Of a DNA stretch of 47,077 bases, positions 1,619 through 16,711 are shown piece by piece. The stretch comes from a virus. How positions within the stretch are numbered: position 1 is the first letter of the stretch; each line of letters opens with the position of its first letter. Location: positions 1 through 47,077 of IMG/VR virus record IMGVR_UViG_3300007542_000040, one strand, 5' to 3'. Made by a program: the position numbers and the translations under genes. The notes beneath the pieces are model-generated. The model did no database searches, was not told the origin of the DNA, and worked only from the letters and a program-made list of their open reading frames with translations.

Positions 1619-2347
1619 ATGGGATTAGTCAGAGTAGGTGTAGCAAACCCTACCGCAAATACTGCAACAACACTTTTCACAAGTGATAATCAGTATCTTA
1701 TGTCGGTTATCGCTACAAATAAATCCTCAAGCATAAATACCTCTCTTAGAATTTGGGTACAGCCAAGTGGATCTTCTACAGAATCTGAATATGCCTATAT
1801 GATTTATGACCTACCACTTGACTTTTCAAACTCATACGAAAGTTTTAGATTTGCAGTAAACCAAAATGATGTTGTTCGTGTATCTGCCTCAACATCTAGT
1901 GTTTCTTTTTCAGCATACGGATTAATTCAGTATGACGTAAAGATTGGGGCAGGTATAAGTTCTTATTTAGACTCAGCCCCCGCAAACCCAGTAGATGGGA
2001 TGATTTGGATAGACGCAGATGGAGTTATTTCTGGAAGCGCTTCCAAACCAGCATATGTTTATAGTGCTGCTTCTGCTCAATGGCTTGCGTTAGCAGGTGG
2101 ATCTTTAAATACCGCAGCAGATTATACTTGGAGTGGAACAAATACTTTTACAGGAACCGTAATAATTCCAGGGTATGAAAAAGAAATTACCCTACAATCT
2201 TCTGCCCCAACATCTCCATCATCAAGCGATCTTTGGGTTGACAGCGTTTCTATGCAACTAAAGGTTTATAACGGCTCCGCATGGGTAGCACTAGGAGCGG
2301 CAGTAGATGATAGCCAACTAGTTATAGCCCAAAGGATGTTTGCGTAA
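1619..2347 (+). CDS. Modular tail fibre protein
   Basis: This 242-residue protein has two parts. Residues 1-105 match the N-terminus of the protein at 8816 (shared SVIATNKS, WVQP.GSS.ES.Y.Y and E(S/T)FRF). Two Trp modules follow: SAPANPVDGMIWIDADG..., and SSAPTSPSSSDLWVDS...YNGSAWVALG. The N-terminal module probably attaches to the tail or a neighbouring fibre, and the repeats probably form the shaft; both are inferred. The stop overlaps the next start as TAATG (2345-2349), which implies translational coupling to the Gly-rich partner. The start is supported by the -10 element 6 nt upstream. Confidence 0.8.
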   Translation: MGLVRVGVANPTANTATTLFTSDNQYLMSVIATNKSSSINTSLRIWVQPSGSSTESEYAYMIYDLPLDFSNSYESFRFAVNQNDVVRVSASTSSVSFSAYGLIQYDVKIGAGISSYLDSAPANPVDGMIWIDADGVISGSASKPAYVYSAASAQWLALAGGSLNTAADYTWSGTNTFTGTVIIPGYEKEITLQSSAPTSPSSSDLWVDSVSMQLKVYNGSAWVALGAAVDDSQLVIAQRMFA

Positions 2348-3237
2348 TGAGTGGGCTACGGAGATTCCTTCCTTCTAGACCAACTAGTGAGTTTTTAAAC
2401 TATCAGAAGTATGGAGCCAAAATACCCTCTATTGCCATAGGAGGAGTTACCTCTGTTGCGGGTGGATACACCATACACACATTTTCAACAACTGGAGCGA
2501 GCAATTTTCAGATAATTTCAGGAATAAGTGTTGTTGATTACCTAGTCGTTGCAGGCGGGGGTGGAGGTGGAGCGTGGGTTGGCGGTGGCGGCGGCGCAGG
2601 AGGTTATTTAACTGGCTCAATCAGTCTAGGCACAACAACTTATGCTTTGTCGGTAGGGTCAGGAGGTAAGGGTGCCTTAAACCCAGGCTCCTACACGAAC
2701 TTACCTGGATCGAATAGCGCTGCAAGTGGATTAAACAGTGTTTTTCATAATATAACTTCTGTAGGAGGAGGACGAGGAGGTTCTTGGTCGGCAGAATCTC
2801 CAACAAATGGAGGATCTGGAGGAGGGGGTACTGGTCAAGGAACGGTGTATGGAAATGGAACAGTTGGCCAAGGTAATAGAGGAGGAACAGGAAGGGGTGC
2901 AAGTCCATATGAAACTGGTGGTGGTGGAGGAGCAGGAGCAGTTGGTCAAGACTATTCCTCAAAGGGGGGCGACGGCGGTATAGGATTACAAAATTCTTTT
3001 TATGGAACCACCACATATTATGCTGGTGGCGGTGGTGGTGGAAAACACGACCCAGGTACACCAGGAACTGGAGGATTGGGAGGTGGGGGAAATGGTCTCG
3101 CCGCTTCCACGGCAAAAGCGGGAAATGGAAATGCAAATACTGGTGGCGGTGGCGGAGGTAATGGTAGAAACGGCGGCGAAAGGTCTGAGGGGGGCGACGG
3201 CGGATCAGGTGTGATAATAATTAGATATATAAGTTAA
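2347..3237 (+). CDS. Glycine-rich tail adhesin
   Basis: This 296-residue protein has a short N-terminal segment, then TSVAGGYTIHTFSTTGASNF and VDYLVVAGGGGGG. About 200 residues are dominated by GGGG clusters split by short polar loops, and it ends GSGVIIIRYIS. This is the phage glycine-rich domain architecture, of which the window has three copies. Dense glycine clusters resemble polyglycine-II sandwich adhesins such as gp38 of phage S16; that comparison is structural inference. The gene is reached by TAATG coupling from the fibre gene upstream, a fibre-plus-adhesin pairing reminiscent of gp37-gp38. Large antisense frames across it are artefacts of GGN codons. Confidence 0.82.
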   Translation: MSGLRRFLPSRPTSEFLNYQKYGAKIPSIAIGGVTSVAGGYTIHTFSTTGASNFQIISGISVVDYLVVAGGGGGGAWVGGGGGAGGYLTGSISLGTTTYALSVGSGGKGALNPGSYTNLPGSNSAASGLNSVFHNITSVGGGRGGSWSAESPTNGGSGGGGTGQGTVYGNGTVGQGNRGGTGRGASPYETGGGGGAGAVGQDYSSKGGDGGIGLQNSFYGTTTYYAGGGGGGKHDPGTPGTGGLGGGGNGLAASTAKAGNGNANTGGGGGGNGRNGGERSEGGDGGSGVIIIRYIS

Positions 3238-3262
3238 AGAATATAAAAAAGGAAATTGATAT

Positions 3263-3589
3263 ATGCCTAGATTTAAAACAACAGAAATGATTATTAAGGG
3301 TACAGAAGAATATTTTGATGAAAATTGGATGGACTCTCCATTCTTACAATTACCCGATTCAGATGCGTGGGATTACTCAAGAGAACTCAATATAGAGGAC
3401 ATAGATATTTGGGAGGTAATCTCAGAAATGTCTGGACCTACAGGTCTATATGCTGCATGGCTTCCTTATGCAGAGTTCTATATGATTATCAATAGAAGAC
3501 AAATAGACTCAACCTATTATGGCAAGGGTTCAGATGATCCTGCATCAAAACGTTGTGACGAACTTGGAATCCACTACCCAAAGAAATGA
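3263..3589 (+). CDS. Small protein of unknown family, paralogue of the gene at 8348
   Basis: This 108-residue acidic, aromatic protein starts MPRFKTTE. It shares with the 140-residue product of 8348 a FDENWM motif, an ED(I/V)D(I/L)WEVI core followed by the identical EMSGP, a G.YAA..PYAE(F/Y)Y.I segment and a terminal I.YPK. No signal peptide, membrane segment or known catalytic motif is visible. AAGGAAAT lies about 8 nt before the ATG, so this copy uses an SD, unlike its paralogue. It sits between a Gly-rich adhesin and a fibre unit. A fibre assembly chaperone or small virion component are both guesses. Confidence 0.7.
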   Translation: MPRFKTTEMIIKGTEEYFDENWMDSPFLQLPDSDAWDYSRELNIEDIDIWEVISEMSGPTGLYAAWLPYAEFYMIINRRQIDSTYYGKGSDDPASKRCDELGIHYPKK

Positions 3590-3595
3590 TATAAT
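3587..3595 (+). promoter_or_regulatory. Extended -10 promoter for a leaderless gene at 3602
   Basis: The sequence is TGATATAAT, directly after the stop of the previous gene (TGA at 3587-3589 shares its first bases). Exactly 6 nt lie between the hexamer end and ATG 3602. Confidence 0.75.
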
Positions 3596-3601
3596 TTATA
3601 T

Positions 3602-3952
3602 ATGGCTACCTTTTCAAAATCACCCCTATCTGGATCAACAAACGGAAAAGGTGTTAACGTAGCAGCAACTGCTACAACAGGGACAACTGTTCATACTGCC
3701 GTCGCTGGCACATCATCTTTTGATGAAGTTTGGATGTATGCAGTAAATACATCAGTCTCCTCTGTAAAGTTGACCGTACAGTATGGCGGAACGGTGGAAG
3801 CAGACAATATTGAAATAACAATTCCAGGAGAATCAGGGTTAGTTCTCGTAATCCCAGGTCTATTCCTCAATAATGCTCAAGTAGTCAGGGCATTTGCAGC
3901 AACAGCAAACGTTATATCTATTCATGGTTATGTAAATCGGGTGACCGCATAA
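3602..3952 (+). CDS. Small beta-rich tail fibre/virion protein
   Basis: This 116-residue protein is almost entirely predicted beta strands. It resembles, in layout, the N-terminal modules of 1619, 4293 and 8816: a TTVHTA strand, a central variable-amide strand, then F.NNAQVVRAFAATANVISIHGYV. It consists of that module alone. The start lies at the presumed transcript 5' end and the stop overlaps the next ATG as TAATG. A virion attachment or collar-type module is likely; no binding residues can be named. Confidence 0.65.
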   Translation: MATFSKSPLSGSTNGKGVNVAATATTGTTVHTAVAGTSSFDEVWMYAVNTSVSSVKLTVQYGGTVEADNIEITIPGESGLVLVIPGLFLNNAQVVRAFAATANVISIHGYVNRVTA

Positions 3953-4260
3953 TGCCAGGATTTTTAGTACCAGCACAACAAACACTTAATCCATTTACTC
4001 CAACAGGTAACATTGCAGCAACAACGATTGCAGATGCAATAGTTGAACTTGATAGTGAAAAGGGTAAGACAGAGCAGGTTGTTAGAGTTTACGATCACGA
4101 ATCCCATCGAAACATAGAAATATCTTCACCAACTGAGGGAATGGTAACGTATTTAAAAAGTTTAAAGACCATAAATGTTTATAATGGAACTGATTGGATT
4201 GAGGTTTCTGGCGGTGGCGGTGGCGCTGCTTTTAATGATTTCTTTCTTATGGGTGCATAA
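3952..4260 (+). CDS. Small tail protein with a Trp module
   Basis: This 102-residue protein is coupled to the upstream gene by TAATG. The N-terminal half (ATTIADAIVELDSEKGKT) looks like a short helical trimerisation or repeat segment of the sort found in fibre shafts. The C-terminal half carries one Trp module (SSPTEGMVTYL...INVYNGTDWIEVSG) and a Gly run. It could be a miniature fibre. Its size and position make a partner of the 3602 product plausible. Confidence 0.65.
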   Translation: MPGFLVPAQQTLNPFTPTGNIAATTIADAIVELDSEKGKTEQVVRVYDHESHRNIEISSPTEGMVTYLKSLKTINVYNGTDWIEVSGGGGGAAFNDFFLMGA

Positions 4261-4266
4261 TTTTCA

Positions 4267-4275
4267 TGATATAAT
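4267..4275 (+). promoter_or_regulatory. Extended -10 promoter with ultra-short SD leader
   Basis: The sequence is TGATATAAT. The predicted +1 is 4282, inside GAGGAG (4281-4286). The transcript would begin almost with its ribosome binding site, giving an 11-nt leader to ATG 4293. Confidence 0.7.
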
Positions 4276-4292
4276 TTATAGAGGAGACATAA

Positions 4293-4625
4293 ATGCCTAC
4301 AGAATATAAAAATTTTAAAATACTAGGAACAGCAGGGTTAACCATTTATGAAACATTGTGTAGCACCACCTCTTTAAGTACTGCTGTAATTTCTACTATT
4401 TCTATTTGCAATAGAACTACAACAAACAAACAATATAGACTTGCAATTGTTGATAGTGAAGGCACACCAGCAACTTCAGAATTTATAGCGTTTGATGCTA
4501 CAGTTGCTCCTAATGATACTTCTTTTATTACTGTAGGACTTGTTTTGAAAAATTTGCAGTTTGTTCGAGTTTCTTCTACGGATAGCAACGTTACATTTTC
4601 TGCACATTTTGCGGAGATAACGTAA
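4293..4625 (+). CDS. Small beta-rich tail fibre/virion protein
   Basis: This 110-residue protein follows the layout of the N-terminal fibre module: a strand with TIYETLCSTTS, SICNRTT, then an amide-rich strand, then VLKNLQFVRVSSTDSNVTFSAHF. The ending is close to the V.VSASTSSVSFSA segment of the 1619 product. It is probably a stand-alone version of that module. GAGGAG supports the ATG. It overlaps the following Gly-rich gene through TAATG, so the pair should be made together. Confidence 0.65.
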   Translation: MPTEYKNFKILGTAGLTIYETLCSTTSLSTAVISTISICNRTTTNKQYRLAIVDSEGTPATSEFIAFDATVAPNDTSFITVGLVLKNLQFVRVSSTDSNVTFSAHFAEIT

Positions 4626-5488
4626 TGGCTGTTTCTAGGTTAAACTTTCCAACATTTTTTAATATGACTTCTACATTTACACCAAATGTTACTGGTGGAA
4701 CAATTACTACTGTTGGTGGATATAAAATTCATACATTTACTTCCACAGGAACAGACAATTTTGCAATGCTTAGCGCACCTCCAAATCAACAGGTAGAATA
4801 TTTGGTTGTCGCTGGTGGAGGGGCTGGAGGATCTAGACACGGATCTTCTGGAGGAGGCGCAGGAGGGTATAGATCTGGAACTTTAACTATGAATGCTGGA
4901 TCATATCTAATAACTGTTGGTCAGGGTGCTGCTGGAACATTCTTCCCACAAAGTCAACCAGCATTAAGAGGGCAAGATTCATCAATATCAAATACAGTTG
5001 TTTCTGTTGGTGGTGGAAGGGGGGCAGGTTATAGCGATTGGGGTGGATACCCAGGTGGTTCAGGTGGCGGTGGAGGTAGTTCTGCAAATCATACAGGTGC
5101 TGGCGGCGGTGGTGCTGGTGGTGTAGGTGGTAATGCTGGTTCTGCAAATTCTAATGCAGCAGGTGCAGGAATTGTTGGTCAAGGTAATGCTGGTGGAATA
5201 TCAAGTACCTCATATCCCAACGTAATAGCAGGAACAGGTGGTGCTGGACTTAGTAGTTCAATAACTGGAACCTCTTTTGAACGCGCAGGAGGTGGCGGTG
5301 GCGCTGCTTGGAACACCCCATCTGGCCCACGCCCAGGTTCGGCTGGCGGCGGATCTGGTGCTGGCGACAATCAAAGTGGCGGCTCTGCTACAACAAACAG
5401 CGGAAGCGGAGGCGGAGGAGGTAATGGGAATCCTTCTGCTGGTGGAAATGGTGGACCAGGAATAGTTGTTTTAAGATATTTAGTTTAA
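4625..5488 (+). CDS. Glycine-rich tail adhesin
   Basis: This 287-residue second copy of the glycine-rich architecture has an N-terminal TITTVGGYKIHTFTSTGTDN, VEYLVVAGGGAGG, many GGGG clusters with Asn/Ser loops, and a terminal GPGIVVLRYLV. It is translationally coupled to the 4293 product. Its TAA stop (5486-5488) overlaps the stop of the halogenase gene on the opposite strand, so two converging transcription units meet with no visible terminator. The likely role is distal receptor binding; receptor unknown. Confidence 0.82.
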   Translation: MAVSRLNFPTFFNMTSTFTPNVTGGTITTVGGYKIHTFTSTGTDNFAMLSAPPNQQVEYLVVAGGGAGGSRHGSSGGGAGGYRSGTLTMNAGSYLITVGQGAAGTFFPQSQPALRGQDSSISNTVVSVGGGRGAGYSDWGGYPGGSGGGGGSSANHTGAGGGGAGGVGGNAGSANSNAAGAGIVGQGNAGGISSTSYPNVIAGTGGAGLSSSITGTSFERAGGGGGAAWNTPSGPRPGSAGGGSGAGDNQSGGSATTNSGSGGGGGNGNPSAGGNGGPGIVVLRYLV

Positions 5489-7062
5489 TCTGTATATATA
5501 TTTTCTTCCAAGTATTTTTTCAAAGACGGCTTATTTTTAGCAGAATTAAACCACTTTGTTTTTCTGCTTTCCATATTTTTTAATATTTTTTTAATATATA
5601 AAGGATCTATTTGATTGTTAAAGTAAATCTTTTGATCAACTAAATCATATACTGGATAATTCATTCCAACAGATATATAAGATATTCCAGCAAGAGGATC
5701 AGGTATATTGCTAAACATTTTTTTATGATGTAAATCAAAAAATCCTACATTCATAGAAGGTTCTAAATTTACCATTTCAGGAGAGAATGTTTTATTCTTT
5801 ATAGTTTTCCAATATTTTGTATTATCTCTGATAGATAAAGAATAATGCATAGAAACAAATTCTGCAAGGTTGTTGTATATACCTCTTGTTGCAGCATTAT
5901 AAACATCTCTGTCCCATTGTGTTACATCATCTCTAAGCAAAGATTTTGCTAATTTTGTAATAAACCATTGCGTTGTAAAAAGACCATTACTTTCTAAAGG
6001 CTCAATAAATCCAGCAGATAATCCTATGGCTACAACATTTTTTACCCAAGTTCGTTCATGTATTCCAATTTTAAACTTTATGTCTTTAAATTCTAATTTT
6101 TCTATATCATTTTTTTCTCTCTTTACAGACATTTTATCAGACATTAAATATTTTTTAAATTCTTCTTTGGCAGTATCTGGATTAACAAATTTATCTGAGT
6201 AAACATATCCAGAACCCAAGCGTGACCATAGAGGTATGTTCCAGCACCAACCATTTTCTATAGCGGTACAATTGGTAAAAGGCTCTAACTCTTTTTCTTT
6301 ATCTATATATGGAATTTGTGTAGCCCAAGCCCTGTTATTGGGAAGCATGTCTTCATAAGAAACAAACTTTTCATCAAGGTATTGGTTTATGAGCAAACTT
6401 TTAAATCCAGTACAATCAATAAATAAATCTGCAAATATTTTTTCTTTATCTTCAGATATTAAAAATTCTATTCCTTCATCATTTATTTTTGCATCAATGA
6501 TATTTTTTTGAATTAATTTAACTCCTCTAGGAATACAATAATTATTTTTTAGCCATTGACCAAAAAGAACAGAATCAAAATGATAAGCAACATCGGTCTT
6601 TGGATTAAAGTTTTCAAATTCACCATATTTGTTGGTATCGTATTTATTATTTTCAAACAAAAAAGAATGAGGAAAATAAGACCTAACAAAATCTTGTACT
6701 GGAATGTCTGGATAATATGCTTTTAGTTCCATCCAATCATTTAATCCGTTAAAAGTATTGTCTGTATATGGCTTTCTGAAAGGATAGTGAAATGAACCAG
6801 AATTAACATCATAAAAATCAGTAAATTTTATGCTCATTTTATATGAAGCGTTAGTAGATCTCATAAAATCTTTTTCATCTATCTCTAGATAATCTCTAAA
6901 AAATGTTATATCCGCTAGAGTGCTTTCTCCAACACCAACTATTGGTATGTCTGGACTTTCTACAACAAAAAATTCTTTCTCAGGGAATGTTTTTGATAAA
7001 AAAGCAGCAGTCATCCAGCCAGAAGATCCACCACCGACAATAACTATTTTATTTATTTTCAT
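5485..7062 (-). CDS. Flavin-dependent (tryptophan-type) halogenase
   Basis: This 525-residue protein has the full halogenase signature. The FAD fold GGGSSG is at residues 10-15 and GES at 45-47. A lysine (K75) in YKMSIKF matches the catalytic lysine of PrnA (K79). AYHFD is near 159, the diagnostic WxWxIP motif (WCWNIP) is at 272-277, and GFIEPLES is at 351-358, with E354 matching the substrate-site glutamate. Length fits the 500-540 residue family. The reaction class is FADH2-dependent halogenation, via hypohalous acid, of an aromatic or other electron-rich substrate. The substrate cannot be read from sequence. AAGGAC precedes the ATG and 1 nt separates it from the upstream oxygenase gene. 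Phage-encoded members are known (cyanophage VirX1). Flavin reductase must come from elsewhere. Confidence 0.9.
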   Translation of the reverse strand: MKINKIVIVGGGSSGWMTAAFLSKTFPEKEFFVVESPDIPIVGVGESTLADITFFRDYLEIDEKDFMRSTNASYKMSIKFTDFYDVNSGSFHYPFRKPYTDNTFNGLNDWMELKAYYPDIPVQDFVRSYFPHSFLFENNKYDTNKYGEFENFNPKTDVAYHFDSVLFGQWLKNNYCIPRGVKLIQKNIIDAKINDEGIEFLISEDKEKIFADLFIDCTGFKSLLINQYLDEKFVSYEDMLPNNRAWATQIPYIDKEKELEPFTNCTAIENGWCWNIPLWSRLGSGYVYSDKFVNPDTAKEEFKKYLMSDKMSVKREKNDIEKLEFKDIKFKIGIHERTWVKNVVAIGLSAGFIEPLESNGLFTTQWFITKLAKSLLRDDVTQWDRDVYNAATRGIYNNLAEFVSMHYSLSIRDNTKYWKTIKNKTFSPEMVNLEPSMNVGFFDLHHKKMFSNIPDPLAGISYISVGMNYPVYDLVDQKIYFNNQIDPLYIKKILKNMESRKTKWFNSAKNKPSLKKYLEENIYTD

Positions 7063-7063
7063 A

Positions 7064-7663
7064 TTATCTTGTCCTTACTATATAAGATTTATAATCTTTG
7101 TTATATCCAATACCAAATCTTTTATCAAATTTATATTCTGAAAAAGGACCATTTTTGTCAACATAATGTATAAAAGATTGAATGTGAAAATTTTCCTCTG
7201 GAGGAGAAAACATTTCTCTAGAATGCTCTAATTCTATGCCCTTATAAATTACTATATCCCCTGGTTCCATGTTAATTTTTTTTCCATCTATAACAATAGG
7301 CCAAGTATATTTTGACTGATCGTAGTTATAATCTAAACAAACGGTAGCAGAAATTTCACAAGATTCTCTATCTGTGTGAGGTTCTAGAATATCTCCAGTT
7401 CTATATACTCTATAAAAAGAATATGTTGGAAATAGTTCTAATCCAGTATTTTCTTCTATTACTGGTAACATTTTTAACAACAATGTTTCCATTGCAGAAT
7501 CTCCATATTTTGCATGAGCATTTGGAACCTGTCCCCCATCAGTTTTGAAGTCTTGTATTTCATCAAATAGAGCATACTGAGAAATAAATTTTATTAATTC
7601 TTCAGAAACTATATTTTTTACAAAAACATACTTATTTTTTTTAAAATAATCTACATTGTTCAT
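7064..7663 (-). CDS. 2-oxoglutarate/Fe(II)-dependent dioxygenase-like protein
   Basis: This 199-residue protein has a C-terminal double-stranded beta-helix pattern. H96 and D98 in EPHTDRESCEISA form the HxD pair, and PGDIVIYKGIELEHSRE supplies H147 as the distal iron ligand. The expected basic residue binding the 2-oxoglutarate carboxylate is not obvious about 10 residues later, where Q162 lies, so co-substrate use is less certain than for its neighbour. AGGAAAAG precedes the ATG. It is the middle gene of a three-gene operon with a halogenase. Hydroxylation of a protein or small molecule is plausible; substrate unknown. Confidence 0.75.
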   Translation of the reverse strand: MNNVDYFKKNKYVFVKNIVSEELIKFISQYALFDEIQDFKTDGGQVPNAHAKYGDSAMETLLLKMLPVIEENTGLELFPTYSFYRVYRTGDILEPHTDRESCEISATVCLDYNYDQSKYTWPIVIDGKKINMEPGDIVIYKGIELEHSREMFSPPEENFHIQSFIHYVDKNGPFSEYKFDKRFGIGYNKDYKSYIVRTR

Positions 7664-7675
7664 ATTTTACTTTTC

Positions 7676-8299
7676 CTAAAGTCTATCTTTTATCCATGTA
7701 ACAATAGAATATTTTGTTCCATCTTTTACTGGATGTGCTATATGTGCATAAGGGTAATTTGATGGAAAAATAATAAGCATTCCTGGTTCTGGTTTAATTT
7801 TAATTCCAAAATTTGGAAACTCTATTTCTCCTCCCACATAATCATCATTAAGGTATAAAACAGCAGAAATGGATCTACCAGTAGAAGTGTCACCATCTGA
7901 ATGGATCTTGTATTCCTGCCCAGATCTATATCTCAGCATATTGTATGGCTCATGATAAAGGTTTAAAACTTTATGTTTTTCTGCATATGGAATTGTTGCG
8001 GCTAAAAGCAAGACATAAAACTGATTATGAATATTTTGCATTAACTCATTGTTAGTAATTTTAGCAAAGTCAGTTATTCCAAGGTTGTAATTTGTTCTAT
8101 ATTCCTGACTCTTTCCATGACTTAATGTTTCAGCATAACTCCAAGAAATTCCAGATTCAGGGTTTGCACATTCTTTGTCTACAGCATCAATTGTTTCTTT
8201 GCATTCAGGCCAAACGTTTTCAAATATTTCTATACATCCACCAACAATTGAATTTGGATGTAGCGTTCCTGGAAAAAAGTTGTTTATTTCTATTGCCAC
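7676..8299 (-). CDS. Prolyl-4-hydroxylase-like 2OG/Fe(II) dioxygenase
   Basis: This 207-residue protein matches P4H-type dioxygenases. H133 and D135 (KIHSDGD) form HxD. NDDYVGGEIEFP is the typical P4H strand-turn. H186 in YAHIAHPV.DGTKYS is the distal ligand, and K196 occupies the place of the usual Arg/Lys that binds 2-oxoglutarate. The start is GTG at 8299 with AGAAAGGA upstream, behind a minus-strand TGATATAAT element. It is first in the operon with a second oxygenase and the halogenase. Possible targets are prolines in the phage adhesins or a host metabolite; neither is shown. Confidence 0.85.
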   Translation of the reverse strand: MAIEINNFFPGTLHPNSIVGGCIEIFENVWPECKETIDAVDKECANPESGISWSYAETLSHGKSQEYRTNYNLGITDFAKITNNELMQNIHNQFYVLLLAATIPYAEKHKVLNLYHEPYNMLRYRSGQEYKIHSDGDTSTGRSISAVLYLNDDYVGGEIEFPNFGIKIKPEPGMLIIFPSNYPYAHIAHPVKDGTKYSIVTWIKDRL

Positions 8300-8321: not shown

Positions 8322-8330
8322 ATTATATCA
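8322..8330 (-). promoter_or_regulatory. Divergent promoter, minus arm, for the halogenase/oxygenase operon
   Basis: On the minus strand this reads TGATATAAT, with TATAAT at 8327-8322 and predicted +1 at 8315. The leader is 16 nt and includes AGAAAGGA before the GTG at 8299. It abuts the plus-strand element at 8333. Confidence 0.75.
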
Positions 8331-8347: not shown

Positions 8348-8770
8348 ATGCCAAGATGGAAGGTAACTGAACAAATTCTTAACTTGTCAAAAGATGGAGA
8401 GTTTTTTGACGAGAACTGGATGAATTATGACAGCATATGGCAATACGCACCAGAGCCAATCCCTTGGAATGGAAGCAGACCTATCAGGTTTGAAGATGTA
8501 GATCTTTGGGAGGTAATTACAGAAATGAGTGGTCCTATCGGAATCTATGCTGCATATCAACCATATGCTGAATATTATATAGTTACCCAAAACTGGAAAG
8601 TAGTTACAGAATTTGAAGGATGGATGGCAAACGAAAGACTTGAGCAATTTTTAATAGAAAGCAATATAGTTTATCCTAAAACTAAAAATTCACCTACCCC
8701 TCCTGAACAAAAAAATGTAGAAAAAAAACTTATTATATCAACAGGTATAATAAACGCCAATAAAAAATAG
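8348..8770 (+). CDS. Small protein of unknown family, paralogue of the gene at 3263
   Basis: This 140-residue protein starts MPRWKVTEQI. It has FFDENWM, then PWNGSRPIRFEDVDLWEVI, EMSGPIGIYAAYQPYAEYY and a downstream NERLEQFL...IVYPK. These motifs align with the 108-residue 3263 product. The extra C-terminus (SPTPPEQKNVEKKLIIST...) is Lys/Pro-rich and probably disordered. No catalytic signature was recognised. The gene is transcribed away from the dioxygenase operon from a shared 50-bp promoter region, which may link its expression to that cassette. The start is leaderless by spacing. Confidence 0.7.
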   Translation: MPRWKVTEQILNLSKDGEFFDENWMNYDSIWQYAPEPIPWNGSRPIRFEDVDLWEVITEMSGPIGIYAAYQPYAEYYIVTQNWKVVTEFEGWMANERLEQFLIESNIVYPKTKNSPTPPEQKNVEKKLIISTGIINANKK

Positions 8771-8800: not shown

Positions 8801-8809
8801 TGATATAAT
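8801..8809 (+). promoter_or_regulatory. Extended -10 promoter for a leaderless gene at 8816
   Basis: The sequence is TGATATAAT with exactly 6 nt to ATG 8816 and no SD in the gap. Confidence 0.75.
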
Positions 8810-8815
8810 TCTAAT

Positions 8816-9922
8816 ATGGCTATAGTTCGTCTTGCTCTATCTAATCCCCCAGCAAGCACAACAACACTACTTCATACAGCAACAAGAAATTCAATTGTTT
8901 CTGTAATTGCTACCAACAAGTCGTTATCTACAGCAGCCAATATCTTAATGTGGGTACAGCCACAAGGATCTTCTTCTGAATCTCAGTATGTTTATTTAGC
9001 ATATGACACAATAATTCCAGTAACAAACTCCTTGGAAACATTCAGATTTCCTTTAAACGTGGGAGATTCTTTATATATAAGTTCTTCTACCGCAAACCTT
9101 TCTTTCTCTTTAAATGCCATATACGAGTCAAATGGAACATCAAATATAACAGCATCATCTACCTATCCATCTAATCCAGCAATTGGTGATGTATTTGTAA
9201 ACACTGCTGGAAACAACGTTCTTTATTGGACAGGATCTGCTTGGGTAAATGGGGTAGCAGATATTTCTCTTTATCCATTTTCTGCCTATCAATCATCTGC
9301 TCCAGCATCCCCAGTAACTGGACAAATTTGGATTGATTCAGATGACAACGCTACCTATGTGTGGAGTGGTTCTACATGGATTCCCACCACATCCCCAGGA
9401 TCTTCCTATCAGTCAGATGCTCCAGTATCTCCAACCCCTAAAGCAGGCCAATTGTGGGTAGATTCAGATACAAGTATTCAGTATGTTTGGACTGGTAGTT
9501 CATGGCTTGCTCTTTCTGACCCAGATATGGTTACCCTTACTGGTACACAAACTTTAACTAACAAAACATTAACTTCTCCAACACTAAACTCTCCTCAATT
9601 AAATACACCAAATACAACCATTGCGTTAAATCCAAGGGTAGCGTCTTACATAACGGTAATGTCAGACAGAGATAGTTTAGTTGAAATGAATGTTGCTTCA
9701 TCAAATACCTTTACCGTTCCCTTAAACTCTTCTGTTGCTTTTCCTATAGGGTCAACAATAAACGTAGTTCAAACTGGAGCAGGGCAAACAACTATCACTG
9801 CAACTGCTGGGGTAGTCATAAATGCAACCCCAGGACTTAAATTAAGAACTCAATGGTCTACCGCAACTCTCATAAAAAGAAACACAGACACTTGGCTAGC
9901 CTTTGGTGATCTCATAGCATGA
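8816..9922 (+). CDS. Modular tail fibre protein
   Basis: This 368-residue mosaic has three parts. Residues 1-105 are the N-terminal beta module shared with the 1619 product. Residues about 115-240 hold three Trp modules (NPAIGDVFVN...WTGSAWVNG; SPVTGQIWIDSD...WSGSTWIPT; KAGQLWVDSD...WTGSSWLAL). After TLTGTQTLTNKTLTSPTLNS comes the C-terminal module ending TDTWLAFGDLIA. It thus joins the 1619-type head to the tail found at 1-423, 11962 and 12838, direct evidence of domain shuffling. The likely role is a virion fibre. The start rests on the -10 spacing. Confidence 0.85.
   Translation: MAIVRLALSNPPASTTTLLHTATRNSIVSVIATNKSLSTAANILMWVQPQGSSSESQYVYLAYDTIIPVTNSLETFRFPLNVGDSLYISSSTANLSFSLNAIYESNGTSNITASSTYPSNPAIGDVFVNTAGNNVLYWTGSAWVNGVADISLYPFSAYQSSAPASPVTGQIWIDSDDNATYVWSGSTWIPTTSPGSSYQSDAPVSPTPKAGQLWVDSDTSIQYVWTGSSWLALSDPDMVTLTGTQTLTNKTLTSPTLNSPQLNTPNTTIALNPRVASYITVMSDRDSLVEMNVASSNTFTVPLNSSVAFPIGSTINVVQTGAGQTTITATAGVVINATPGLKLRTQWSTATLIKRNTDTWLAFGDLIA
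9641..9922 (+). repeat. C-terminal fibre module, copy 2
   Basis: Begins ASYITVMSD and ends DTWLAFGDLIA at the stop codon. It is most similar to copy 3 (both have NATPGLK.RTQWS). Confidence 0.8.
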
Positions 9923-9931
9923 TGATATAAT
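9923..9931 (+). promoter_or_regulatory. Extended -10 promoter for a leaderless gene at 9938
   Basis: The sequence is TGATATAAT with exactly 6 nt to ATG 9938. A partial -35 (TTGGTG, 9903-9908) lies 17 nt upstream of the hexamer, inside the previous gene. Confidence 0.75.
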
Positions 9932-9937
9932 TGAAAA

Positions 9938-11104
9938 ATGTCAGTAAGAATTCAACTTCGTAGAGATACCGCTATAAACTGGACAACAAACGATCCAATC
10001 CTTGCAGAAGGAGAATTAGGCTTAGAAATTGATAGCGGTAGGTGGAAGGTTGGAAACGGACTACACGCATGGGACGCACTCCCGTATTCAAACTCAATCT
10101 TCTCAGGACCAGCAGTTATTGCAGATAGTAGTTCTGGAACTGCCTTAAGAATTACTCAAACGGGAACAGGAAACGCACTTGTAGTAGAAGATGAAATTAA
10201 TCCAGACGCAACACATTTCGTAATCAACTCAGATGGATATGTAGGAATTGGAAAAACAGATCCAATAGCGTTACTTGATGTTGACGGTGGATCAAGATTT
10301 TCTGGACAAATTACATCAACAGTAGCCACAGGAGCAGCACCAATTGTTGTTGCCTCTACAACATCTGTAACAAATCTTAATGCAGATATGCTTGATGGAA
10401 GTCATGCTTCTGACTTTTCTCTAACATCTCATACTCATTCAGGAGACTTTCAACCAGTAGATGGTGATCTGACAGCAATTGCCGCCCTTACTGAAACAGT
10501 GGGTCTTCTAAAAAAGACAGCGGCCAATACATGGGCTATTGACGACACAAGTTATCTTAAGGTTACAGACGCATCAACTAACTATCAAGCAAAGGATAAT
10601 GATTTAACTGCTATTGCTGCTTTAACAGGTACGGCGGGACTGTTAAAAAAGACAAATACAGATACTTGGATACTAGATACAAGCCTATATGCCCTTGACG
10701 ATAAGGTTGTTCATGACACAATGGACGAAACAATTGGAGGGGCTAAGACATTCACCAATCCATTAACGGTCCAATCAATAGTTACAGCAAACAACTACGA
10801 CATTGGTTTAACAACTCTTTCGACAGATTCAATTAACTTAAACTTTTCAGGAGAAACTGGACTTTATACAAGGACAGCAGCAGGAGCCATAACATTTACC
10901 GCCACGAATTACCGTGCTGGTGCAATTAAGACAGTGAGAATACTTCCTGGGGGATCAACAAGAACGTTGTTTTTCCCTCCGTCATGGGTCTTTGTTGGAA
11001 ATAAACCAACATCTATATCGGGAAGCACAGTGGGAATTCTTACTGTAACTTCATTTGGAACAACAGAAGCAGATTGTGTGGCTGCTTGGGCGGTACAAGC
11101 CTAA
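9938..11104 (+). CDS. Tail fibre with Mtd-type N-terminus
   Basis: This 388-residue protein has three parts. Residues 1-50 (VRIQLRRDTAINWTTNDPIL, AEGELGLE, KVGNGLHAWDALPY) match the N-terminal domain seen in major tropism determinants and many fibres. The middle has a GNALVVEDE...GYVGIGKTDP segment and two ..DLTAIAALT.T.GLLKKT.. repeats, typical of shaft beta-helices. The C-terminus (from about residue 285) is a separate beta domain rich in Thr/Gly. No reverse transcriptase or variable repeat was seen nearby, so the Mtd-like part does not imply diversification. The start is leaderless by spacing and the stop overlaps the adhesin start as TAATG. Confidence 0.88.
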   Translation: MSVRIQLRRDTAINWTTNDPILAEGELGLEIDSGRWKVGNGLHAWDALPYSNSIFSGPAVIADSSSGTALRITQTGTGNALVVEDEINPDATHFVINSDGYVGIGKTDPIALLDVDGGSRFSGQITSTVATGAAPIVVASTTSVTNLNADMLDGSHASDFSLTSHTHSGDFQPVDGDLTAIAALTETVGLLKKTAANTWAIDDTSYLKVTDASTNYQAKDNDLTAIAALTGTAGLLKKTNTDTWILDTSLYALDDKVVHDTMDETIGGAKTFTNPLTVQSIVTANNYDIGLTTLSTDSINLNFSGETGLYTRTAAGAITFTATNYRAGAIKTVRILPGGSTRTLFFPPSWVFVGNKPTSISGSTVGILTVTSFGTTEADCVAAWAVQA

Positions 11105-11922
11105 TGCCTATACACGGTTTTAGGAACATGGCTCTAACTGCTCAACTTCCCAAGCCAGAAGTTTCTGGAGGAACTTTTACTTCTGATGCAACTTATTATT
11201 ATAGAAAATTTACTTCAGGAGGAACTCTATCTGTAACAAATGGATCTATAAACGTTGATTATTTAATAGGTGCTGGTGGCGGAGGGGGTGGCGGTGGTTC
11301 CGCTGGCGGTCAAGGAGGAGGAGGTGCTGGAGGATTAATTATTGGAACCACAACAATATCTGGATCGCATCCTGTAATTATTGGTACTGGTGGTGGACAA
11401 AACGTTAACGGCGGGAATACTACTGTTGGGTCTATTCTCTCTGTTACTGGCGGTGGTGCTGGAGGTGCTCCAAGAGGTGACGCTGGCTCTAATGGTGGTT
11501 CGGGTGGTGGTTGTGCTGAAACTGCTGGGGGAAACAATGTGGGTGGAACTGGTATTAGCGGTCAAGGAAACAAGGGTGGAGACACGTTTGGTATCTTGAA
11601 CTCTGGAGGTGGTGGTGGAGGAAAGAGTAGCGCAGGAACCAACTCTGCCAACGACAAGGGAGGAAACGGAGGTTCATCAATAACTTCCTCCTTAAGTGGT
11701 GTTTCTACTGCATACGCAGGAGGTGGTGGTGGATCTTCTTACGTTGGAGCAATTGGTACTGGAGGAGGCGCTACCGCTGGGAACGGTGGAAGGGTTGGTG
11801 GTGCAGGTGGCAGTGCTTCCGCTAACACTTGCTCAGGAGGCGGTGGAGGCGCTCAAAACGTTGGTGGCTCTGGTGGTTCTGGAATATTTATCATAAGATA
11901 TTTAAAGTCTGAGGTCGAATAA
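11104..11922 (+). CDS. Glycine-rich tail adhesin
   Basis: This 272-residue third glycine-rich protein has TFTSDATYYYRKFTSGGTL, VDYLIGAGGGGGGGGSAGG, many GGGG clusters and a terminal GSGIFIIRYLKSEVE. An upstream in-frame ATG at 11074 exists inside the fibre gene. The ATG at 11104 is preferred because it forms the TAATG overlap used by the other pairs. The central part carries Cys at CAE and at NTCSGG, unlike the other two copies. The fibre-plus-adhesin pairing with 9938 suggests the protein caps that fibre. Confidence 0.82.
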   Translation: MPIHGFRNMALTAQLPKPEVSGGTFTSDATYYYRKFTSGGTLSVTNGSINVDYLIGAGGGGGGGGSAGGQGGGGAGGLIIGTTTISGSHPVIIGTGGGQNVNGGNTTVGSILSVTGGGAGGAPRGDAGSNGGSGGGCAETAGGNNVGGTGISGQGNKGGDTFGILNSGGGGGGKSSAGTNSANDKGGNGGSSITSSLSGVSTAYAGGGGGSSYVGAIGTGGGATAGNGGRVGGAGGSASANTCSGGGGGAQNVGGSGGSGIFIIRYLKSEVE

Positions 11923-12822: not shown

Positions 12823-12831
12823 TGATATAAT
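12823..12831 (+). promoter_or_regulatory. Extended -10 promoter for a leaderless gene at 12838
   Basis: The sequence is TGATATAAT beginning immediately after the upstream stop. Exactly 6 nt separate it from ATG 12838. Confidence 0.75.
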
Positions 12832-14767: not shown

Positions 14768-16711
14768 ATGTCATTTATTGACGAAAACGGATCAATCTCA
14801 GATCCATACAGAAACTTTATTCATGTGAGCAGATACTCACGATGGCTAGAAGATAAAAATAGAAGAGAAACTTGGGTGGAAACTGTAGATCGTTACATGG
14901 ACTTCATGAAGAATCATCTAGTTAAAAACTACAACTATGACGAAAGCAACATTAAATTTGCTCAAGTTCGTGATGCAATTCTTCATCACAAGGTTATGCC
15001 ATCTATGCGTAGCATGATGACGGCAGGCCCAGCATTGGACAGAGATCATATTGCTGCATATAACTGTTCATTCATTGCAGTGGACTCACTTCGTGCATTT
15101 GATGAAGCCATGTATGTTCTGATGAATGGCACAGGGGTTGGCTTTTCTGTAGAACAGAAATATATCTCTAATCTTCCTGTCATTGCAGAAGAATTGTTCC
15201 AAAGCAATACAACCATTGTGGTCGAAGATTCTAAGTTAGGTTGGGCTAAGGCTTACAAAGAGTTGCTTGGTCTTTTGGCAATGGGTCAGATTCCTGAGTG
15301 GGATATGTCTAAGGTTCGTCCAGCAGGAGCAAGACTCAAAACATTTGGCGGTAGGGCATCTGGTCCAGAACCGCTACATGACCTTTTCAAGTTCACCGTT
15401 GAAACCTTTAGAATTGCAAAGGGTCGCCGTCTTAAGTCAATTGAAGCGCACGACCTTATGTGTAAGATTGGTGAGGTAGTCGTTGTAGGTGGAGTTCGTA
15501 GGTCTGCACTAATCTCTCTTTCAAATCTTGATGATTTTGAAATGGCAAAGGCCAAGTCTGGTCAATGGTGGGAACAAGAGGGGCAACGTGCTCTAGCAAA
15601 CAACTCAGCAGTATATAACTCAAAACCAAATACCGCTCAGTTCCTCCGTGAATGGAGAAACCTTTATGAGTCAAAATCTGGGGAACGAGGTATCTATAAT
15701 CTAGATGCTGTTCGTAAGCATATTGATAAGTTTGGTAGAAGGGATTCAAGCAAGGTTGCGGGAACAAATCCCTGTGGAGAGATACTGTTGCGTGCTAATC
15801 AGTTCTGTAATCTTACAGAGGTTGTTATTGACGCAGAAGATACGAAGGAAACCCTTGAGCAGAAGATTCGTATAGCATCAATTCTTGGAACTTGGCAATC
15901 AAGCCTAACAAACTTTAAGTATATTCGTAAATCATGGAAAGCCAACTCAGAAGAAGAGCGCCTCCTTGGAGTATCTTTAACTGGCATCTTTGGGAATACT
16001 CTAACTGGAACCGTACATGATGGACTTGCTGAAATGCTTGATGAATTGAGAGAGTTTGCAGTAGAAACAAATGTTTCTGAAGCAGACATTCTTGGTATTG
16101 AACATTCTGTTTCCGTCACTACAGTTAAGCCATCTGGGACAGTTTCTCAACTAACAGGTGTTTCCAGTGGAATTCACCCATGGTATTCAAAGCATTACAT
16201 TCGTTCTGTTCGCGCAGACAATAAAGATCCTTTGACACAATTCCTCAAAGAGTTTGGTGTTCCAAGTGAGCCAGACGTAATGAAGCCAGATGTAACCACT
16301 GTGTTTTATTTTCCAATCAAGGCTCCAGAAGGTGCAACAGTGACAAAGGATTTGTCTGCAATAGAGCATTTAGAGGTCTGGAAGGTATACAGAACTCATT
16401 GGACAGAGCACAATCCATCTGTAACTATTAACGTTGCAGAGGATGAGTGGCTTGATGTTGGTGCTTGGGTATTTAACAACTTTGATTCTATTGGAGGAGT
16501 ATCCTTCCTACCGCTCTCAGAACATTCTTACAAGCAGGCTCCATATCAAGAAGTTAGTGAGGAAGAGTATGAGGTCGCACTAGCCGCAATGCCAAAGAGA
16601 ATTCCTTGGGAGTCTTTACCACTCTACGAACTAGAAGACACAACAACAGGATCGCAAGAACTTGCATGTGTATCTGGAATTTGTGAAGTGGTGGACCTAG
16701 TATCCGCATAA
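14768..16711 (+). CDS. nrdJ: Adenosylcobalamin-dependent ribonucleoside-triphosphate reductase (class II)
   Basis: This 647-residue single-chain reductase converts ribonucleotides to deoxyribonucleotides for phage DNA synthesis. C100 (AAYNCSF) is the first active-site cysteine. NPCGE places the thiyl-radical C336, and C347 in QFCNLTE lies 11 residues later, the same spacing as C408/C419 of the Lactobacillus leichmannii enzyme. The C-terminal CVSGIC pair (C634, C639) matches its CX4C redox shuttle. VKPSGTVSQLTGVSSG is the conserved Ser/Gly loop. At 647 residues it is shorter than the about 740 of the Lactobacillus protein. It sits alone between adhesin genes and a large tail protein, with its own promoter, and depends on host cobalamin. 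Confidence 0.93.
   Translation: MSFIDENGSISDPYRNFIHVSRYSRWLEDKNRRETWVETVDRYMDFMKNHLVKNYNYDESNIKFAQVRDAILHHKVMPSMRSMMTAGPALDRDHIAAYNCSFIAVDSLRAFDEAMYVLMNGTGVGFSVEQKYISNLPVIAEELFQSNTTIVVEDSKLGWAKAYKELLGLLAMGQIPEWDMSKVRPAGARLKTFGGRASGPEPLHDLFKFTVETFRIAKGRRLKSIEAHDLMCKIGEVVVVGGVRRSALISLSNLDDFEMAKAKSGQWWEQEGQRALANNSAVYNSKPNTAQFLREWRNLYESKSGERGIYNLDAVRKHIDKFGRRDSSKVAGTNPCGEILLRANQFCNLTEVVIDAEDTKETLEQKIRIASILGTWQSSLTNFKYIRKSWKANSEEERLLGVSLTGIFGNTLTGTVHDGLAEMLDELREFAVETNVSEADILGIEHSVSVTTVKPSGTVSQLTGVSSGIHPWYSKHYIRSVRADNKDPLTQFLKEFGVPSEPDVMKPDVTTVFYFPIKAPEGATVTKDLSAIEHLEVWKVYRTHWTEHNPSVTINVAEDEWLDVGAWVFNNFDSIGGVSFLPLSEHSYKQAPYQEVSEEEYEVALAAMPKRIPWESLPLYELEDTTTGSQELACVSGICEVVDLVSA

Follow-up and report, generated by a model that had tools for sequence, protein, structure and literature searches.

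An exchangeable cassette of a predicted halogenase and two prolyl-hydroxylase-like oxygenases is linked to glycine-rich tail adhesins in an actinophage-like virus

IMG/VR virus record IMGVR_UViG_3300007542_000040 is a viral DNA of 47,077 nucleotides (nt; positions 1 to 47,077, the whole stretch analysed here, which we call the window), in which a predicted flavin-dependent halogenase and two predicted 2-oxoglutarate (2OG)/Fe(II) oxygenases are encoded in the midst of tail adhesin genes, and this raises the question of what such enzymes would act on in a phage. Phage halogenases and the numerous marine-phage 2OG oxygenases were already noticed in the earliest cyanophage genomes; they lack a substrate and have been classed with metabolism, antibiotics or DNA repair. 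Here the cassette is found to be genetically linked to glycine-rich (Gly-rich) adhesins, and we regard a functional link between the two as highly probable. Oxidation and halogenation of the receptor-binding tip by the cassette is the best explanation of the locus as a whole, and we judge the case for it to be evenly balanced. The cassette and its two borders comprise:

4625-5488, plus strand: Gly-rich tail adhesin, PF21722 (57 bits) and phrog_2295, abutting the cassette
5485-7062, minus strand: predicted flavin-dependent halogenase of the VirX1-type, PF04820, 525 aa, with K75, W272xW274xIP and E357-S358
7064-7663, minus strand: predicted 2OG/Fe(II) oxygenase A, phrog_2954, 199 aa, with H96-x-D98...H147-x-R149 and a prolyl 4-hydroxylase (P4H)-like fold
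7676-8299, minus strand: predicted 2OG/Fe(II) oxygenase B, P4H-like, PF13640, 207 aa, with a GTG start, H133-x-D135...H186 and K196; first gene of the operon
8348-8770, plus strand: small gene opening the next adhesin module and bounding the insertion on its other side; in the cassette-free contigs L219, L220 and L221 the adhesin is directly adjoined by its homologue

The three minus-strand open reading frames (ORFs) are spaced only 1 and 12 nt apart and are therefore read as one operon. This had been proposed in a first-pass annotation of the same DNA, and all three ORFs were recovered in place on the minus strand; likewise, its description of the cassette as opposite in strand to the surrounding tail adhesin genes is borne out by the adhesin-like plus-strand genes that flank it. 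The halogenase gene ends tail-to-tail with the Gly-rich adhesin gene 4625-5488, in a convergent arrangement with a 4-nt overlap at the halogenase stop, and the operon start is 48 nt from 8348-8770, which puts the cassette between a PF21722 Gly-rich adhesin and the adhesin module that follows. The G+C content of the cassette is 29%, compared with 39% in the window outside it, and low G+C is seen again in the halogenase/2OG oxygenase blocks of other contigs. When the cassette genes were compared with their relatives the differences were concentrated at third codon positions, which indicates that all three are under purifying selection.

The product of 5485-7062 matches PF04820 with 337 bits (E 2.5e-100) and phrog_2928 with 465 bits, its nearest structure is the solved VirX1 of cyanophage Syn10 (PDB 6qgm; 354 bits), and in a tree it groups with the VirX1-type enzymes, among them the relative of VirX1 from syn9 (support 98/99). 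The cyanophage VirX1-type halogenases are 34-47% identical to it. These matches make it a flavin-dependent halogenase of family PF04820, with VirX1 as its nearest counterpart. The first-pass annotation had listed K75, W272/W274 (WCWNIP) and E354 as in place. The first two are present, together with GGGSSG at residue 10 (the GxGxxG motif for flavin adenine dinucleotide, FAD) and WCWNIP at 272; residue 354 is indeed a Glu, the first of 354-EPLES, but the catalytic Glu is instead the second, E357, which is followed by S358. The ends of the alignments place window residue 357 at about PyrH 354, PrnA 346 and RebH 357, which we take to be the catalytic Glu of those enzymes, and the K75/E354 pair corresponds to PyrH numbering. 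No flavin reductase was seen among the annotated genes of the window, which is an incomplete genome, and the host may supply one.

Oxygenase A has no Pfam match. However, in its alignment H96-x-D98, H147 and R149 are invariant, the last being a basic residue at a spacing unusual for 2OG binding, and its AlphaFold2 model (predicted local distance difference test, pLDDT, 86) best matches the Pseudomonas putida P4H in Foldseek (E 1.6e-9). Oxygenase B matches PF13640 with 59 bits and the Bacillus anthracis P4H 3itq with E 5e-6; H133/D135 are nearly invariant and H186 invariant, and K196, a candidate 2OG-binding basic residue, is kept in its close family. Its model (pLDDT 85) best matches vCPH of PBCV-1 and PHD2. 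Both models show a prolyl-hydroxylase-like double-stranded beta-helix, with best E values of 1.6e-9 each and template modelling (TM) scores of about 0.55-0.7, and the models liken A and B to enzymes that hydroxylate prolyl residues in proteins (P. putida P4H, vCPH, PHD2). The 207-aa and 199-aa ORFs thus correspond to what had earlier been called a P4H-like dioxygenase and a second HxD...H dioxygenase, and both descriptions stand. The PHROG name of phrog_2954, 'ferrochelatase', is wrong for oxygenase A since the HxD...HxR residues are invariant and the model matches prolyl hydroxylases; the phrog_2954/phrog_3531 family combines the iron site of 2OG/Fe(II) enzymes with the fold of prolyl hydroxylases. 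Furthermore, the first half of phrog_3531 matches oxygenase A and the second half oxygenase B, and therefore a fused A/B relative exists.

Relatives of the window with and without the cassette show it to be an exchangeable unit, precisely inserted between adhesin modules. Sister contig L218 (contig of L140) carries a cassette at the same site, in the same order and orientation, with oxygenases 66% and 63% identical to those of the window. Contigs L219, L220 and L221 lack the cassette, and in these the adhesin abuts or slightly overlaps the homologue of 8348-8770. The N-terminal segment of the adhesin at this site follows the same division: that of the window pairs best with the cassette-bearing sister L218 (55%), and those of two sites without a cassette are each other's best match (58%).

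A neighbourhood survey of viral halogenases, suggested by the first-pass annotation, found the arrangement of enzyme and Gly-rich adhesin to recur in at least two unrelated phage lineages. In the T4-like cyanophages (Kyanoviridae), the typical order is Gly-rich 'tail fiber assembly' genes, then the VirX1-type halogenase and then up to nine 2OG oxygenases, with this block often just before the neck gene gp13. Among 11 reference phages that have both a VirX1-type halogenase and a PF21722 hit, the nearest PF21722 hit is 471-1305 bp from the halogenase in 10. The combined Fisher p was ~1e-6 for the VirX1-type and 0.09 for the shorter PF04820 type, against a null of a random position in each record that ignores shared ancestry. 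Several IMG/VR contigs likewise show halogenase/2OG oxygenase blocks adjoining opposite-strand Gly-rich genes, as in the window; of 25 such block-bearing contigs tested, nine have the window's portal type and three have T4-type Gp23, so they come from more than one lineage. Long tandem oxygenase arrays were also observed in S-CREM1 (L004:10628-16118) and syn9 (L006:10576-16667), between the Gly-rich/halogenase genes and the next block, and these include JmjC_2/Cupin_8 and DUF6445 members; the JmjC_2/Cupin_8 protein of the syn9 array belongs to families with protein-hydroxylating members.

Two cyanophage Gly-rich adhesins were searched against 50,697 phage records and together matched 20, every one of which has a VirX1-type halogenase. 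The window adhesin itself had no match in these records and the co-distribution covers the cyanophage adhesin family, in which the pairing holds across diverse cyanophages. A natural pair of S-RIM44 isolates shows the same. In NC_047734, three Gly-rich genes, two halogenases and an oxygenase array lie between the long fibre gene and gp13, while KX349295, whose neck genes are 97.1% identical, has three or four small genes in this interval and neither a Gly-rich gene nor a halogenase; one of these small genes has a Syn1 equivalent that marks it as a PhyH-type oxygenase. The adhesins, the halogenases and nearly all of the array have therefore been gained or lost together among S-RIM44 isolates.

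Since unrelated phages gain and lose the enzymes and the tips together, the enzymes probably decorate the tip, and the earlier suggestion of a tailoring function, made from the position of the operon among fibre genes, is now well supported. By its family matches, 4625-5488 appears to be a Gly-rich adhesin (PF21722, gp38-like) in a fibre/receptor-binding locus, with receptor binding predicted. We propose that the cassette would be a tailoring set tied to this adhesin and acting within infected cells. Oxygenases A and B would hydroxylate residues of the phage receptor-binding protein, probably Pro and possibly another side chain, and the halogenase, FAD-dependent and with its flavin reduced by the host, would halogenate an activated residue. 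The leading candidate substrate is the Gly-rich tip 4625-5488, and the chances that the adhesin protein is itself the substrate seem to us about equal either way. The outcome would be a change in receptor-binding chemistry or stability and, through this, in host recognition; the residue modified and the benefit gained are what we infer.

Several points weigh against modification of the tip. Physical linkage alone could yield such co-inheritance, as neighbours may be inherited together without acting on each other, and the neglect of shared ancestry in the placement null counts here as well. The one exception among the 11 reference phages, S-B64, has its halogenase beside SbcC and far from the adhesin, the S-MbCM6 enzyme, weakly placed with the VirX1-type clade, lies beside psbA in a phage without a PF21722 gene, and many fragments show long halogenase-PF21722 distances or have no PF21722 gene. 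In sister contig L218 the enzyme in the PF04820 slot (3253-4698, minus strand; PF04820, 300 bits) is only 26% identical to that of the window and has WLFRLP in place of WxWxIP, and so may not halogenate. Finally, the adhesins of halogenase-bearing phages show no enrichment of Tyr or Trp, and adhesin composition thus gives no support to the Tyr or Trp targets named in the first-pass annotation. Gly-rich domains do contain more His at halogenase-bearing than at halogenase-free loci (2.0% and 0.4%, uncorrected p 0.001), and Pro is higher near halogenases (p 0.048), but these are two of nine uncorrected, phylogeny-confounded comparisons that we do not rely on, and the His difference is possibly due to phylogeny. 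In S-SZBM1 virions the fibre proteins 51 and 52 were detected and the Gly-rich proteins 48 and 49 were not (PMC9146016), despite 8-9 suitable tryptic peptides in each; this is a hint only, as low copy number explains it equally well.

VirX1 takes many small aromatic substrates in vitro (PMC8407142), S-SSM7/S-SSM6a carry a halogenase of another type within a sugar/carbamoyltransferase cluster to which secondary metabolism or decoration of the capsule has been ascribed (PMC7824862), and cyanophage prnA has been proposed to serve host protection (PMC2984593, PMC9964418). The cassette might by analogy make or edit a small halogenated or hydroxylated molecule, such as an antibiotic, a signal or a capsule/cell-surface precursor, with the adhesin site acting as a cargo hot spot. 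We consider this unlikely. No carbamoyltransferase, sugar or scaffold genes (non-ribosomal peptide synthetase or polyketide synthase) were found among the scanned neighbours of the cassette, which sets it apart from the S-SSM7-type secondary-metabolite/capsule clusters; its recurrent neighbour is a Gly-rich adhesin and not a pathway, and a hot spot alone leaves unexplained why the cyanophage adhesin family was never found without a halogenase. Readings of the cassette as part of a ribosomally synthesised and post-translationally modified peptide (RiPP), DNA-modification or defence system were also considered, and no RiPP precursor peptide, base-modification gene or defence gene was seen near it in their support. 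Likewise, a role of the 2OG oxygenases as DNA-repair auxiliary genes was set aside, as uvsX, uvsY and uvsW are not beside the cassette and its neighbours are adhesin and virion genes.

A protein target other than the Gly-rich adhesin, whether the long fibre, a neighbouring receptor-binding protein, a host surface protein or an EF-Tu-like target, would suit both the best structural match of oxygenase A, a P4H solved with and without EF-Tu, and the several further fibre proteins that flank the site. It is, however, quite improbable, as in two cyanophage comparisons it is the Gly-rich adhesin that tracks the halogenase, with the long fibre gene present regardless of the cassette. A neutral or selfish AT-rich insertion (moron) with no role in adsorption would fit the low G+C content, the cassette's own promoter and its presence/absence polymorphism, but is very unlikely given that the catalytic residues are intact, the third-position bias shows selection, the PF04820 slot has been refilled by a different enzyme with the oxygenases kept, and the adhesin allele at the site best matches that of the cassette-bearing sister.

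The promoter of the cassette is represented by one further feature:

8322-8330, minus strand: TGATATAAT, an extended -10 promoter motif lying 22 nt ahead of the cassette's first start codon, the GTG of oxygenase B

The sequence TGNTATAAT (the TGATATAAT motif) occurs 15 times in the window compared with 3.3 expected, a number reached by no shuffle, and 13 of the 15 copies immediately precede the start of a gene on their own strand (p 3e-18, at a 3% chance for each); other copies include 430-438, 3587-3595, 8801-8809, 9923-9931 and 12823-12831. The motif also precedes the cassette in L218, a 60-kb contig, at 5953-5961 on the minus strand, where it is the sole copy opposite in strand to the virion genes. 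As the motif precedes the cassette in both, the cassette is taken to share its type of promoter with the virion genes. We dropped a late-specific reading of the motif because it is spread along whole relatives, and general sigma-70 and terminator scans showed no excess over shuffles. In several cases the copy stops exactly 6 nt short of an ATG, an arrangement that would give leaderless mRNAs, which are common in actinobacteria.

The carrier itself appears from its sequence to be an actinophage-like siphovirus, likely with an aquatic actinobacterial host. The portal protein is 42% and the head protease 44-58% identical to those of Streptomyces phages of ~130 kb (large siphophages), and these, together with a tape measure of 2741 aa, led us to reject a T4-like cyanophage (Kyanoviridae) as carrier. 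The comparison with cyanophage VirX1 drawn in the first-pass annotation is therefore apt for the enzyme and does not extend to the phage. The remaining genes of the adhesin region are:

2347-3237, plus strand: Gly-rich tail adhesin of the preceding module, PF21722 (90 bits)
8816-9922, plus strand: fibre/virion structural protein, with phrog_18179 and phrog_8780 tail/structural matches
9938-11104, plus strand: receptor-binding protein with Mtd_N and BppL_N segments (Pfam) and phrog_697
11074-11922, plus strand: third Gly-rich adhesin, phrog_2295 (126 bits)

The small proteins 3263-3589 and 8348-8770 are alike by eye, have no family match and each open an adhesin module, a likeness which suggests tandem duplication of modules composed of a small gene, fibre genes and a Gly-rich gene. 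A ribonucleotide reductase (phrog_367) is encoded at 14768-16711, between the adhesin and head genes, and its place is conserved in relatives. Among the relatives of the PF04820 enzyme, we also observed a subclade in which WxFR[IL]P replaces WxWxIP (L218:3253-4698, minus strand; L014:3225-4694; L039:7996-9453); the loci of this subclade carry the same two oxygenase families, and these PF04820 enzymes may perform a different chemistry in the same slot.

The adhesin linkage would give viral halogenases their first concrete candidate substrate, and its presence across unrelated phages, with natural presence/absence pairs, makes the substrate question directly testable. As a tentative generalisation, phages may halogenate and hydroxylate their own adhesins by means of exchangeable cassettes, with recognition needing non-standard residues, and this may be the native role of VirX1-type halogenases. 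If true, phages would tune host recognition by chemistry beyond the twenty amino acids, and virion protein halogenation would represent a type of modification new to viral proteins.

In the literature such phage genes have been given roles in metabolism, antibiotics or repair (PMC3037559, PMC2984593, PMC9964418, PMC9602691, PMC7824862), phage 2OG oxygenases have been likened to the human prolyl hydroxylase EGLN3 (PMC12774648), and within the part of the literature covered we found no report of tail-fibre hydroxylation or halogenation, or one tying halogenases or 2OG oxygenases to adhesins. The Gly-rich genes of the window resemble the tips S16 gp38 and Pam3 gp24 in their GGGGxGG-type repeats, the variable stretches between these and their place in a fibre operon. 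Gly-rich domains are described as the recognition tips of Pam3 and S16 in the portion of the source available, which reports no modifying enzymes with them (PMC9608196). Oxygenases A and B have the fold and HxD...H iron site of the viral collagen prolyl hydroxylase vCPH of PBCV-1 (5c5t) and P. putida P4H (4j25/4iw3) but are only 10-22% identical to these, and their prolyl substrate is a prediction. The S-SSM7/S-SSM6a cluster likewise combines PF04820 and 2OG oxygenases in a phage, although its PF04820 enzyme is distant and stands with sugar and carbamoyltransferase genes, unlike the window cassette. The arrays of T4-like cyanophages (syn9, S-CREM1, S-SCSM1) have related P4H-like oxygenases together with a halogenase and Gly-rich genes; such oxygenase arrays have been interpreted as metabolic or repair genes (PMC3037559, PMC9602691), and they reach nine enzymes where the window has a minimal set of two. 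VirX1 shares with the window enzyme its PF04820 family, clade and halogenase motifs and aligns with it end to end, it has a large, accessible active site (PMC8407142), and in syn9 its relative likewise has Gly-rich genes and an array of oxygenases as neighbours; the window halogenase is, however, only ~39% identical to VirX1, is carried by an actinophage-like siphovirus, and belongs to a reversed cassette with two oxygenases only. The enzyme families are thus already known, and what appears to be new is a recurrent and testable linkage of halogenase and hydroxylases to Gly-rich adhesins, which includes an actinophage-like lineage.

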